A stretch of 64,000 nucleotides of DNA from Microcella pacifica (GTDB lineage: Bacteria > Actinomycetota > Actinomycetes > Actinomycetales > Microbacteriaceae), in NCBI RefSeq assembly GCF_009371975.2, contig NZ_VIKT02000001.1, positions 535 to 64,534 of the forward strand, given 5' to 3'. The notes beneath the pieces are model-generated. The model had not been told where the DNA came from and did not search any database. It worked only from the letters and a program-made list of their open reading frames with translations. The position numbers and the translations under genes were made by a program. This document shows, piece after piece, positions 29,804-31,780 of this stretch (within the stretch, counting starts at the first letter, position 1; each line of letters opens with the position of its first letter).

Positions 29804-31171
29804 TCAGTGCTGCTGCATCTGCTCGATGTACTCGCGGATCGTCGGGACGCCTTCGAGCTTGGCGCGAAAGAACGTGTTGACGAGGTTGATGACGTGCGCG
29901 CGCGCGGCCTCGAGGTCGCTCGAGCGCCGCTCGCCCGCATCCTGGTCTTCGAGCGTTCGGCGCAGGGTCATGAGGGCAGCGACGATCTCCGCCTCTTCCT
30001 CGCCTTCGAGCTCGGCGATGACCTGCATGATGAGGGCGTCGGCCTGGTCGCGCACGGCATCGATGGGGATGCTCGTACCCGGCTGGGTGGCGTTGTCGAG
30101 CGTCGAGAGGAGCGACCAGACCTGATAGAGGATCGTCGCCGGCTCGTCGAAGAGCTCGCGCACGTAGGCGGCATCCACGTGGCGGCCGGAGAGCCGGAAG
30201 ATGTTGTACATGCGCTTGGCGGCCTTGCCGTAGTTGACCTGCTTCGTGAGGTACTTGCGCACCTCGCTCTCGAGCCGCTCGACGTACTCGTCGAGCGCGT
30301 CGTCGCTCACGAACTTCGCGACCTTCGCGAAGGTCGGCATGGCGTCGGCGTCGAGGTAGACCTCCTGGAAGTAGGCATCGAGGTAGCCGTCGAGGGGCAC
30401 GATCTCGCCGTCGGGCGCCTCCCACGTGACGTCGATGACATTGCTCGCGTTGGAGAGCGCCTTGCGCTCGGGGTCGGCCACGACCCAATCGAGCTTGCAC
30501 CAGCCGGGGTCGAGCGCGGCCTCGTGCCAGGTGAGCGTGCGGGTCGTGCCGTCGGCGAGGTCGAGCTGGATGCTCTGCGCCTCCACCTCCACGGGAGTCC
30601 ACGTGATCGGCGTGCCCTTCTTGCGCGACTGGCCGCCGTGCTCGCAGTTCTCGGGGTAGTTGCCGAGCTTGGCTTCGAGGAACTGGAAGGGGTCGCCGGT
30701 CGCCGTGCGGCGAGCAGCGTCGCGCATGAGGTCGGCCATGATGCGGCACGCCTCCTCGCGCGTGTCTGCCTTGATGTTGAGCCGCTGGAAGTAGTCGCAA
30801 TCGCCGGGGAAGGACTGGATCTTCGACTGCGCGGCCGAGCCGCTCAGGGCAAGGGCGCTCTCGGCGACCGCGGGCGGGCCCGTGACCTCGACGATCGCGC
30901 CGATGCGGCGGAACCGTTCGAGGTCGCGCGGCGTGAAGTCGAGCATGCTCACGCGGTGGCCGAAGGTGCCGCTCTCGTGAGAGACGATGTGGTCGTCGCT
31001 CGCGGCGTCGGCGGCGATGGCGGCGAGCCACTGCAGCGCGCCCTCTTCGTCGAGCTGAACACCGAGGCGCTGGGCCGACTCGATGATGCTGGCCAGGTCG
31101 TCGTCAGGCGCGTTGCCGGGGTACTGACCGGTGTCGGGAGTGGGGGCGTCGGCGGGGGCTGCGGAGCTCAT
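29804..31171 (-). CDS. Uncharacterised protein with nucleotidyltransferase-like motif pattern
   Basis: 455 residues; I do not recognise the family. It has a pattern that fits the polymerase-beta nucleotidyltransferase fold: ALSGS (Gly 111, Ser 112), then FPGDCDYFQRL with Asp 124 and Asp 126, and a later candidate third carboxylate in GWCKLDWVV (Asp 228). The C-terminal 200 residues are helical and charged. The N-terminal 25 residues are low complexity. Start 31171 is preferred over 31210 because GAGAGGT lies upstream. It follows a DEDDh exonuclease gene by 42 nt in one unit, so an RNA- or DNA-end role is a reasonable guess. The transferase call is inference only. Confidence 0.5.
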   Translation of the reverse strand: MSSAAPADAPTPDTGQYPGNAPDDDLASIIESAQRLGVQLDEEGALQWLAAIAADAASDDHIVSHESGTFGHRVSMLDFTPRDLERFRRIGAIVEVTGPPAVAESALALSGSAAQSKIQSFPGDCDYFQRLNIKADTREEACRIMADLMRDAARRTATGDPFQFLEAKLGNYPENCEHGGQSRKKGTPITWTPVEVEAQSIQLDLADGTTRTLTWHEAALDPGWCKLDWVVADPERKALSNASNVIDVTWEAPDGEIVPLDGYLDAYFQEVYLDADAMPTFAKVAKFVSDDALDEYVERLESEVRKYLTKQVNYGKAAKRMYNIFRLSGRHVDAAYVRELFDEPATILYQVWSLLSTLDNATQPGTSIPIDAVRDQADALIMQVIAELEGEEEAEIVAALMTLRRTLEDQDAGERRSSDLEAARAHVINLVNTFFRAKLEGVPTIREYIEQMQQH

Positions 31172-31213
31172 CGGTGAGACCTCTCGGGTAGCGCGCGCGG
31201 CGGCCCGCACGCT

Positions 31214-31780
31214 TCAGGCGCCCGCGGAGCGCTCCTGCTGCTCGGCCCGGATGGCCCGGAACAGGGTCGCCTGATCGCGTGCGTCGTCGAGTGCATTATG
31301 CGTCAGGACCATCTTCAGGCGATAGTGCTCGGCCACGCGGTGCAGGCTCGTCTCGCCCCACGGCGCGCCCGTCACGCCTGCGAAGAAGGCCTTGACGTCG
31401 AGCGCCGCGTGCCCGAGCGGGTTGCGGCCGAGGTAGCGGTGGAAGTAGTCGGCGACGAACATCCAGTCGAAGGGGGCGTTGAAGCCGACCAGGAGCGGCT
31501 GAGTGTGGGGCGGGGTCACGGCGCCGATCCAGTCGGCGAACGCGGTCATCGCCTCGCGGGGCGGGGTTCCGGATGCTCGGAGCCCGTCGAGCGTGAAGCC
31601 GCCGATGCTCATCGCCGCGTCGTCCACCTTCTCGCGGTCGGGCTGCAGCTCGACGTAGAACGCCTGCTCGGGGTCGTCGACGAGGCACGCGCCGAGCGAG
31701 AGCATCGCGTAGTCGCTCGGGCTCGGCCCCGCGGCCTCGATGTCGACGGAGATGAGGGTGACGGGTCGAGGGTCGGGCAT
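31214..31780 (-). CDS. DEDDh-family 3'-5' exonuclease
   Basis: 188 residues. All DEDDh elements are visible: Exo I SVDIEAAG (Asp 13, Glu 15), Exo II VGFNAPFDWMFV (Asp 105), Exo III HNALDDARDQA (His 161, Asp 166). Compact size like RNase T or oligoribonuclease-type enzymes, with no extra domain. TAGCGT lies 6 nt before the ATG. First gene of a two-gene unit with the uncharacterised protein downstream. DNA versus RNA substrate cannot be told. Confidence 0.85.
   Translation of the reverse strand: MPDPRPVTLISVDIEAAGPSPSDYAMLSLGACLVDDPEQAFYVELQPDREKVDDAAMSIGGFTLDGLRASGTPPREAMTAFADWIGAVTPPHTQPLLVGFNAPFDWMFVADYFHRYLGRNPLGHAALDVKAFFAGVTGAPWGETSLHRVAEHYRLKMVLTHNALDDARDQATLFRAIRAEQQERSAGA

Follow-up and report, generated by a model that had tools for sequence, protein, structure and literature searches.

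A recurrent bacterial gene pair of a Cap18-like exonuclease and a protein with a predicted giant-virus-type nucleotidyltransferase fold

The gene pair and its conserved residues

The window analysed here, a 64,000-nucleotide stretch of the Microcella pacifica genome, contains two adjoining genes that an earlier note had described as an unrecognised unit of an exonuclease and a possible nucleotidyltransferase (NTase). Both open reading frames lie at the coordinates and on the minus strand given in that description, as the list of reading frames confirms, and we regard the following anatomy of the two-gene unit as nearly certain.

31214 to 31780, minus strand: DEDDh 3'-5' exonuclease, Cap18-like, first gene of the unit (ORF of 188 aa; Pfam RNase_T; PADLOC)
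31172 to 31213, minus strand: intergenic gap of 42 bases, from the exonuclease stop to the NTase ATG (ORF coordinates)
29804 to 31171, minus strand: predicted NTase-fold protein of 455 aa, the second of the two genes (ATG start at 31171; AlphaFold2, Foldseek, VIA)
30836 to 30841, minus strand: GS motif, G111-S112, after the first core strand, 103-109 (invariant in 95/95 rows)
30794 to 30802, minus strand: candidate metal-binding DxD, D124-C-D126, at the start of strand 124-134 (Asp invariant in 95/95)
30488 to 30490, minus strand: candidate third catalytic Asp, D228, in GWCKLDW on strand 225-233 (invariant in 95/95)
30191 to 30235, minus strand: conserved basic helix NYGKAAKRMYNIFRL, residues 313-327 (alignment of 95 rows)
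29807 to 30349, minus strand: predicted C-terminal helical domain, residues 275-455 (AlphaFold2 model, with helices only from 275 onward)

At its longest, the NTase frame would use a GTG at 31210 as an alternative start and encode 468 aa. The 42-base gap is consistent with a single transcript for the exonuclease and the NTase; over 68 loci, with the ATG picked by script, the median gap is 35 bases and nine loci have a gap of -4. The genes that flank the pair in the window, which we named by eye, look ordinary, as had been noted: a TadE-like gene upstream and, downstream, genes for a short-chain dehydrogenase and for release factor 2. Most direct neighbours of the relatives look ordinary as well.

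In Pfam, the exonuclease exceeds the cut-offs of both RNase_T (2.8e-09) and Rv2179c-like, while its scores for the 16 NCBIfam families listed all stay below the respective cut-offs. Its residues 9-179 match PDB 7t2s (phmmer E 5.6e-42), and the protein also matches the PADLOC Effector/Exonuclease model PDLC00753 (1.6e-64). The complete DEDDh set reported for it is present and conserved, with D13, E15, D105, H161 and D166 kept in 69, 69, 70, 70 and 70 of 70 rows, the rest being gaps. PDB 7T2S is named as Cap18 in the accessible text of PMC11981726, and the available portion of a review (PMC10419184) states that Cap18 degrades ssDNA or ssRNA. Similarly, the accessible part of PMC9122588 describes a CD-NTase encoded together with Cap18.

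For the second protein the earlier note had proposed, in ATG numbering, a GS at 111-112, a DxD at 124-126 and a third Asp at 228, and had tied its reading to the conservation of the three Asp. All of these residues are invariant in 95/95 rows of the family alignment, as are W224, K226 and W229 around D228. In Pol-beta-type NTases a GS is followed about 12 residues later by a DxD, and here the DxD lies ~12 residues beyond the GS, with D228 on a later core strand. Since the signature residues are invariant in all 95 rows and the DEDDh residues of the exonuclease are likewise kept, the motif match is not due to chance. Within the basic helix K316, R320, Y322, N323 and R326 are also invariant (95/95), position 319 being K in 92 rows and R in 3, and we infer for this helix a candidate role as a triphosphate or nucleic-acid contact.

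Sequence searches and predicted fold of the NTase

The window NTase has no Pfam or NCBIfam match up to E = 5 and no PADLOC match, and sequence profiles of its family do not retrieve the Megaviridae entries 4ams, 4amq and 4xul at E up to 10. Among 25 of the 31 Pfam families matched by 63 members there is no known toxin-NTase family. Several stray matches were taken as chance. One, to YicI glucosidase (PDB, E 0.008), vanishes when the family profile is used; the others are rows from phages of E. coli and Campylobacter that cover the same part of the protein (E 0.1-0.9), profile rows to Sestrin-2 and haloacid dehalogenase, and a pair of PHROGs matches to the window NTase (E 0.084 and 0.3). The NTase cores of 8 of the 63 members have PHROGs matches (best 0.0047), with an integrase family matched in 2 of the 63 (best 0.0004). 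Three tblastn scans of viral contigs found no NTase relative, and phage and plasmid records gave chance-level NTase rows only; identity to the viral fold relatives is 7-16%, so tblastn would not be expected to detect them and its negative outcome does not speak against a viral link.

A comparison of the predicted fold with the PDB had been suggested, with an unrelated fold named as the outcome that would speak against an NTase, and the AlphaFold2 model of the full protein (pLDDT 85.7, pTM 0.84) matched NTase folds. VIA aligned it with Mg662 (4xul) over 303 residues at Z 20.0 (rmsd 3.6 A, 11% identity), and the Z scores of 20.0 and 19.9 to Mg662/L544 entries cover the NTase core and the C-terminal helical domain, which are arranged alike in both; the best row beyond the Megaviridae entries reached Z 10.2. 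Foldseek matched the full model to 4ams at E 3.8e-07, with TM-scores to Mg662 that were moderate (0.45-0.48 by query length). The helical C-terminal domain that had been claimed appears in the model, which has helices only past residue 275, and this domain falls within the Mg662 match (model 78-455).

Similar results were obtained when the NTase core was folded alone (pLDDT 84.5). The three Megaviridae entries were at the top of its VIA list (Z 10.9-11.5). Below them, at Z 5-6, came Pol mu, TdT, Pol lambda, CD-NTase, cGAS, TUTases and Rel, and NTase-type folds made up 50/50 among the VIA matches listed, Rel being another protein with this fold. Foldseek with the core returned three clear rows, all Megaviridae, the rest being mostly unrelated (kinesins and immunoglobulin-like domains, E of 0.029 or more). 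The loop after the GS is poorly predicted, with a pLDDT of 66 for block 111-120 in the full model and below 50 for 113-120 in the core model. The predicted folds of full model and core, by AlphaFold2, Foldseek and VIA, thus agree with the claim of a polymerase-beta-type NTase, and the partner has a predicted core of this type together with the helical domain of Mg662. The claim that it fits no known family holds for Pfam, NCBIfam and PADLOC, but its predicted fold is that of the Megaviridae L544/Mg662 NTases.

Distribution, pairing and neighbourhood

We found 218 NTase relatives in genome contigs, distributed patchily over Actinomycetota, Chloroflexota and Armatimonadota. Co-occurrence of the pair across Actinobacteria had been proposed as a check, and the pair proved to be a recurrent unit there and also outside that group: a Cap18-like exonuclease lies directly upstream of the NTase in 73 of 95 rows, with none in 20 and two cut by contig ends. 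This count excludes L102 (a weak 53-residue match), L114 (partial), L104 and L105 (duplicate entries for the L048 and L062 loci, each carrying the exonuclease) and, apart from the window, the genus loci L001-L015; L145-L147 also lie outside it. L095 has an in-frame stop, which is entered as X in the tree, and solo status for L098-L113 refers to ~1.5 kb of flank at a tblastn limit of 1e-3. Several phyla have members in which the two genes adjoin and run in the same direction, and named carriers of the pair include Salinibacterium soli, Terrimesophilobacter mesophilus, Bellilinea caldifistulae and Nocardioides halotolerans.

The best 80 of the 218 relatives, which are the nearest ones, were kept for locus analysis, and the exonuclease adjoins the NTase in 70 of them. 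This figure overstates the partnership, since 12 of 14 further rows from sampled whole genomes have no adjacent exonuclease. Moreover, of 14 genomes in which no adjacent exonuclease was detected, 9 have no exonuclease match anywhere, some of these genomes being incomplete; together with the 20 solo rows, this indicates that trimming by an exonuclease partner is not obligatory. Since roughly one row in five has the NTase without this exonuclease, the NTase would be the central component and the exonuclease an accessory to it. At one locus without the usual partner (L046), a divergent exonuclease, 31% identical, adjoins the NTase convergently. Exonuclease and NTase distances correlate (Mantel r 0.575, 58 loci, 0/1000 permutations as high), a correlation that shared descent alone may explain. 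Within the window's genus the two genes are present or absent jointly, with clean empty sites in a check that covered 16 of the 25 other genus genomes and thereby 6 of the 11 unit-less genomes. Indeed, exonuclease matches above 200 bits occur in 15 of 60 relatives, exactly those with the NTase. One genome (G007) holds the unit at a separate location.

The neighbourhood was surveyed through 85 of 111 direct neighbours, from 61 of 80 loci; these ORFs were picked by length and GC3, so some will be wrong. A fixed third partner was rejected, as the immediate neighbours vary and their orientation relative to the unit is mixed over the 61 loci (upstream 31 same and 25 opposite, downstream 20 same and 35 opposite). 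By Pfam the 85 neighbours are mostly ordinary genes (best 25 of 120 families), and among the families listed the repair-type ones were the exonuclease VII large subunit, beside four, and an AlkZ-like glycosylase, beside one. Prophage or plasmid cargo was rejected, there being no mobile gene family among the best 25 of 120 and only chance-level phage and plasmid rows. PADLOC found one CBASS-type exonuclease, that of L046, and no complete system among the 85 neighbours, with mad2/mad6, PD-T4-6, RT-Protease_XI, pVip and three PDC families at one neighbour each. Six reverse-transcriptase-type matches are read as misassigned DnaG primases, of which Pfam counts the same number (6). A defence island is therefore unsupported by the PADLOC scan of these direct neighbours.

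Possible roles and comparison with known systems

As the likeliest mechanism, though at somewhat less than an even chance, we infer that the pair would write and erase 3'-terminal nucleotides, a proposal that covers its activity, substrate and role alike. D124, D126 and D228 of the NTase would hold two metals, and the enzyme would transfer NMP from NTP, template-free, to a 3' terminus, either of RNA, perhaps tRNA, or of single-stranded DNA. The exonuclease, which probably shares a transcript with the NTase, would remove added or damaged nucleotides, and the pair would thereby set end length or repair ends.

An unlikely alternative is that a MenT-like NTase extends tRNA 3' ends and stops translation, with the exonuclease acting as an enzymatic antitoxin that removes the additions. 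The order of the genes, exonuclease first and tightly spaced, is what such a toxin and detoxifier might show, and so is gain or loss of the unit as a whole (15 of 60 relatives hold both), although joint presence is already expected from adjacency. A precedent exists in E. coli, where the co-overexpressed exonuclease RNase PH counteracts MenT3 and gives resistance, according to the accessible text of PMC11541572. The 20/95 solo NTases and the 9/14 genomes without an exonuclease are awkward for an obligate antitoxin, and no known toxin-NTase family is among the Pfam matches listed.

Ranking next, and likewise unlikely, is modification of a protein or small molecule by the NTase (AMPylation or nucleotidylation), the exonuclease being an operon passenger or reversing the modification. 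The aminoglycoside-modifying ANT-3,9 does appear among the NTase folds, as a weak Foldseek match (7uy4, E 0.093), but the NTase recurs next to an exonuclease of nucleic acids in several phyla, which favours a nucleic-acid substrate, as does the divergent exonuclease beside L046.

The earlier note had also raised a defence module, a suggestion for which Cap18 kinship and patchy distribution speak and against which stand mostly ordinary direct neighbours and the lack of a complete system among them. In its CBASS-like or signalling form, with the NTase making a nucleotide signal or tagging phage nucleic acid and the exonuclease as accessory, we consider it improbable. The exonuclease is nearest to E. 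coli Cap18 (7t2s), the unit is patchy and sits at a separate location in G007, and CD-NTases and cGAS are among the core fold matches, but CD-NTase likeness is limited to the general fold, PADLOC found no complete system among the 85 direct neighbours, tblastn found no relative in viral contigs, and phage and plasmid rows are at chance level. Moreover, catalytic-dead Cap18 leaves CBASS protection unchanged, as the accessible part of PMC9122588 reports.

More improbable still is DNA end repair, in which the NTase extends DNA 3' ends and the exonuclease resects them: Pol mu, TdT and Pol lambda come next after Mg662 in the core VIA list and Cap18 degrades ssDNA or ssRNA (PMC10419184, in the portion available), but Pol mu and TdT at Z 5-6 tie with cGAS, TUTase and CD-NTase, so that those rows do not discriminate, and no repair family is a regular neighbour among the families listed for the 85 neighbours.

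Returning to 3'-end writing and erasing, it is conceivable, if doubtful, that a bacterial cellular branch of the L544/Mg662 NTases forms with its dedicated exonuclease an unrecognised system of this kind, possibly a tRNA toxin/detoxifier or phage-responsive. If so, a gene that was deposited as a Megaviridae ORFan might have come from bacteria. The family is highly conserved, spans at least three bacterial phyla and has no model in the curated libraries searched, yet its predicted fold is that of a solved giant-virus enzyme. Within the literature searched, largely outside subscription journals and in part as partial text, we found no paper on the activity, substrate or function of a bacterial member or of Mg662/L544. 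The bacterial set adds what the viral one lacks, namely more than 200 sequences (218 relatives), invariant residues, a recurrent partner and named strains, which opens the function of the entire fold family, with its viral members, to experiment.

Among known systems, RNase T/DnaQ-type DEDDh exonucleases share the RNase_T and Rv2179c-like Pfam matches with the window exonuclease, which differs in reaching no NCBIfam family cut-off. Cap18 of CBASS resembles it in sequence (7t2s, E 5.6e-42) and in the DEDDh residues, whereas the window partner is not recognised as a CD-NTase by PADLOC, and a CBASS set (CD-NTase, effector and ancillary genes) was not found by PADLOC in the window NTase and 85 of the 111 direct neighbours. 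CD-NTases and cGAS match the predicted core at the level of the general fold (Z ~5-6), and a GS and DxD signature is typical of CD-NTases; their match is far weaker than that of Mg662 (CdnG Z 6.1 and CdnB Z 5.4 by VIA), and no PADLOC model fits the window NTase. MenT/AbiEii-type NTase toxins share the predicted fold, and for the window NTase, which is larger than MenT, we propose the same chemistry, addition to 3' ends without a template. Unlike them, it has no family match and its relatives are sometimes partnerless; an obligate exonuclease antitoxin as in MenAT/MNT is not borne out by the 20 solo rows among 95 and the 9 of 14 genomes without any match.

The closest likeness is to Megaviridae Mg662, whose PDB record calls it an ORFan nucleotidyl transferase, and mimivirus L544 (4ams, 4amq and 4xul, the last a GTP complex per its PDB title), which share the predicted arrangement of NTase core and C-terminal helical domain; virophage and giant-virus proteins are predicted relatives, the NTase model matching Zamilon virus V6BPH6 at Foldseek E 3.7e-13. 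In contrast to Mg662/L544, the window NTase stands at 11% identity without retrieval by sequence profile. Compared with Mg662 it has ~77 extra N-terminal residues, and the NTase family described here is bacterial, not viral, and often has an exonuclease partner.

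Conserved residues of the two genes

The unit lies on one strand of the window, with 42 bases separating its ORFs:
31214-31780, minus strand, exonuclease ORF, 188 aa
29804-31171, minus strand, ORF of the nucleotidyltransferase-fold protein (NTase), 455 aa from its ATG; a GTG upstream at 31210 would give 468 aa

The exonuclease scores above the Pfam cut-offs for both RNase_T and Rv2179c-like, and none of the 16 NCBIfam families listed for it reaches cut-off. In PADLOC it is best matched by PDLC00753 ('Effector, Exonuclease'; E 1.6e-64), which we take to be a CBASS model. Its closest solved relative in the PDB is 7t2s (E 5.6e-42), identified in a passage of PMC11981726 as E. 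coli Cap18, a CBASS-associated 3'-5' exonuclease. The NTase of the window matched nothing in Pfam or NCBIfam up to E 5 and nothing in PADLOC up to E 1; when 63 members of its family were run against Pfam, the families shown (25 of 31) each matched at most four members, the best shown at E 0.014.

The NTase alignment has 95 rows: the 80 retained loci, 14 further rows taken from sampled genomes, and the window itself. The GS, DxD and third Asp to which the earlier note drew attention (G111, S112, D124, D126 and D228) are invariant throughout, as are W224, K226, W229, D247, D261 and D265 and, among others, K316, R320, Y322, N323 and R326. In polymerase-beta-type nucleotidyltransferases the two Asp of the DxD and the third Asp hold two metals for nucleotidyl transfer. 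The complete DEDDh set ascribed to the exonuclease was borne out as well, with D13, E15, D105, H161 and D166 invariant wherever the position is present (69-70 of 70 rows). DEDDh enzymes hydrolyse 3' ends.

Predicted fold of the NTase

The full-length NTase model (AlphaFold2, 63 sequences) has pLDDT 85.7 and pTM 0.84. It places GS just after strand 103-109, DxD at the start of strand 124-134 and D228 on strand 225-233, and it is helical from residue 275 onward, in keeping with the helical C-terminal domain proposed earlier. The stretch after GS is of low confidence (pLDDT 66 for block 111-120, and below 50 for 113-120 in a core-only model). In Foldseek the top PDB matches were 4ams, 4xul and 4amq (E 3.8e-07 to 2.8e-06; TM by query length 0.45-0.48), all entries of the Megaviridae nucleotidyltransferase family Mg662/L544; their PDB titles speak of an ORFan nucleotidyl transferase or of its complex with GTP. 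VIA superposed these entries on model residues 78-455 (Z 20.0, 19.9 and 17.9; 294-303 residues; rmsd 3.6-4.2 A; identity 10-11%); the rows that followed were unrelated proteins with Z of at most 10.2, and at about Z 6 came poly(A) polymerase from yeast and mammals together with CdnG, a TUTase, cGAS and DncV. Among viral predicted structures there were 16 matches with E below 0.001, the best being Zamilon V6BPH6 (E 3.7e-13). Each of the 11 with an organism name belongs to a virophage or a giant virus, while five are nameless in the tables, and the 16 include one labelled nucleotidyl transferase (Pithovirus), one 'L544-like helical domain' and one 'V21 virophage-like'.

Because chance matches gather on helical bundles, the core (residues 74-288) was refolded alone, giving pLDDT 84.5. 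The three Megaviridae entries led again, both in Foldseek (E 1.4e-04 to 1.5e-03), where the remaining matches had E of at least 0.029 and were mostly unrelated (kinesins, immunoglobulin-like), and in VIA (Z 10.9-11.5). Next in VIA, at Z 5-6, came Pol mu, TdT, Pol lambda, CdnB, cGAS, Tut1, TUTase 1 and Rel; NTase-type folds, of which Rel is one, made up 50 of the 50 rows listed. For the predicted core, the guess of a polymerase-beta-type nucleotidyltransferase looks to have been a good one. The earlier note also recognised no family for the partner, which holds for Pfam, NCBIfam and PADLOC but not at the level of predicted fold. Profile searches detected no sequence-level link between the NTase family and Mg662. 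The bacterial family is predicted to share the fold of Mg662, and many of its members have an exonuclease partner.

We found no report of this bacterial family in the literature searched. The title of a 2011 paper, listed among the references of PMC6031395, presented mimivirus L544 as a possible transcription factor, and 4xul is among the GTP sites surveyed in PMC11594714. A term search found none of the three PDB entries in a giant-virus mRNA maturation paper (PMC4402537) or in an NTase-fold review (PMC11646218).

Distribution and pairing

A species-genome collection yielded 242 stretches with the conserved pattern, 218 of which encode an NTase relative; the best 80 of these 218, retained for locus analysis, are by their record titles Microbacteriaceae, Nocardioides, many Anaerolineae, Armatimonadetes and WS1. 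Counts in sampled genomes were low: 7/396 in the phylum sample (including the window's own and one weak 53-residue match), 12/201 in the Chloroflexota set (one partial; two, G452 and G453, seeds of the search) and 3/101 in the Armatimonadota-seed sample (two of them seeds). Therefore, the distribution of the NTase is patchy. One locus, L095, has an in-frame stop near the NTase N-terminus, reflecting either a pseudogene or a sequencing error. Two Campylobacter phage records (MG065691.1, MG065686.1) match, at chance level, the same region of the NTase query as E. coli records (YicI-like, PDB search), perhaps as bacterial DNA in phage records.

The pair described in the earlier note is a recurrent one. 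Of the best 80 of 218 loci, 70 have the exonuclease immediately upstream of the NTase and in the same orientation (8 have none, 2 are cut by a contig end) and directly upstream in 73 of all 95 rows (20 absent, 2 cut). The intergenic gap has a median of 35 bases over 68 loci, nine of which, in both phyla, are 4-base ATG-stop overlaps. Solo NTases account for 12 of the 14 sampled-genome rows, and therefore pairing is densest among the window's near relatives. Of 14 whole genomes in which no adjacent exonuclease was detected (two being contig-end cases), nine had no match anywhere and five had weaker matches elsewhere (E 5e-18 to 9e-4); four positive-control genomes gave E 1.9e-56 or better in the same search. 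On the NTase tree exonuclease presence requires 7 changes, as compared to 18.4 with shuffled labels; well-supported branches of the quick tree force only 3, with 26/92 inner branches open. One of the five weaker matches is a divergent exonuclease of the same family (L046:11465-12025, minus strand, 31% identical) that directly follows a solo NTase in convergent orientation, apparently an independent pairing. The pairwise distances of NTase and exonuclease are correlated (r 0.575, 58 loci, 0/1000 permutations as high), as expected of co-inherited genes. By eye, among solo NTases of one actinomycete family, L101 has a prs-like gene upstream and L099 a ribosomal L25-like gene nearby, and in L107 and L108 the NTase is upstream of an arginyl-tRNA-synthetase-like gene.

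Of 60 relatives, 15 have the NTase; all belong to the window's genus, namely G000 and 14 of its 25 other genomes. Exonuclease matches above 200 bits fall in the same 15, which is no independent proof because the genes are adjacent; 12 further genomes have weaker matches only, and G006 has a second exonuclease copy (G006:C24:1023-1559, 42% identical) away from its NTase match. In 14/15 genomes the unit is upstream of the same dehydrogenase gene. Five of six unit-less genomes examined have a clean empty site there, with a TadE-like gene 75-132 bases from the dehydrogenase (aligned ends), and the sixth, G001, has a different ORF at the junction (L120, about 748-1434; peptidase E-like by eye). G007 has an empty site too; its unit, which is more divergent, lies on that contig at a distance of about 12 kb, and G007 sits beside unit-less G001 on the dehydrogenase tree. 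Presence at the site takes 2 changes on that tree, although in 36% of 200 bootstrap trees one change is enough. We infer that the pair either arrived twice in the genus or arrived once and then moved, always as a whole; the junction may be favoured for insertion.

Neighbours of the pair are of mixed orientation (61 loci). Pfam families among 85 direct neighbours include DNA primase (6), glycyl-tRNA synthetase beta (4), class-III aminotransferase (4) and exonuclease VII (4), the remainder occurring 1-3 times each (25 of 120 families shown). With neighbours so mixed and ordinary, the pair seems to stand by itself, as the earlier note had described it. In several Anaerolineae, L041 and L059 among them, the unit is near primase and glycyl-tRNA synthetase genes.

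Possible work of the pair

The NTase would add nucleotides to 3' ends and the exonuclease would trim them. We tentatively regard such addition and trimming as the pair's likeliest function, because the two genes recur together, because no other partner is constant and because the predicted fold is akin to that of template-free enzymes. A toxin-detoxifier version of addition and trimming has, by analogy, a precedent in MenT3, which is relieved by RNase PH (PMC11541572); NTases standing solo argue against an obligate antitoxin. A defence module had also been suggested, and for a CBASS-like role there are just the exonuclease's kinship to Cap18 and the patchy distribution. Against it, PADLOC found no complete defence system among the 85 direct neighbours, where matches were to primases, the L046 exonuclease and, singly, mad2/mad6, PD-T4-6, RT-Protease_XI, pVip and three PDC families. 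Moreover, catalytically dead Cap18 was dispensable for protection according to a passage of PMC9122588. Cap18 is described in a review (PMC10419184) as a homodimer that degrades ssDNA or ssRNA.
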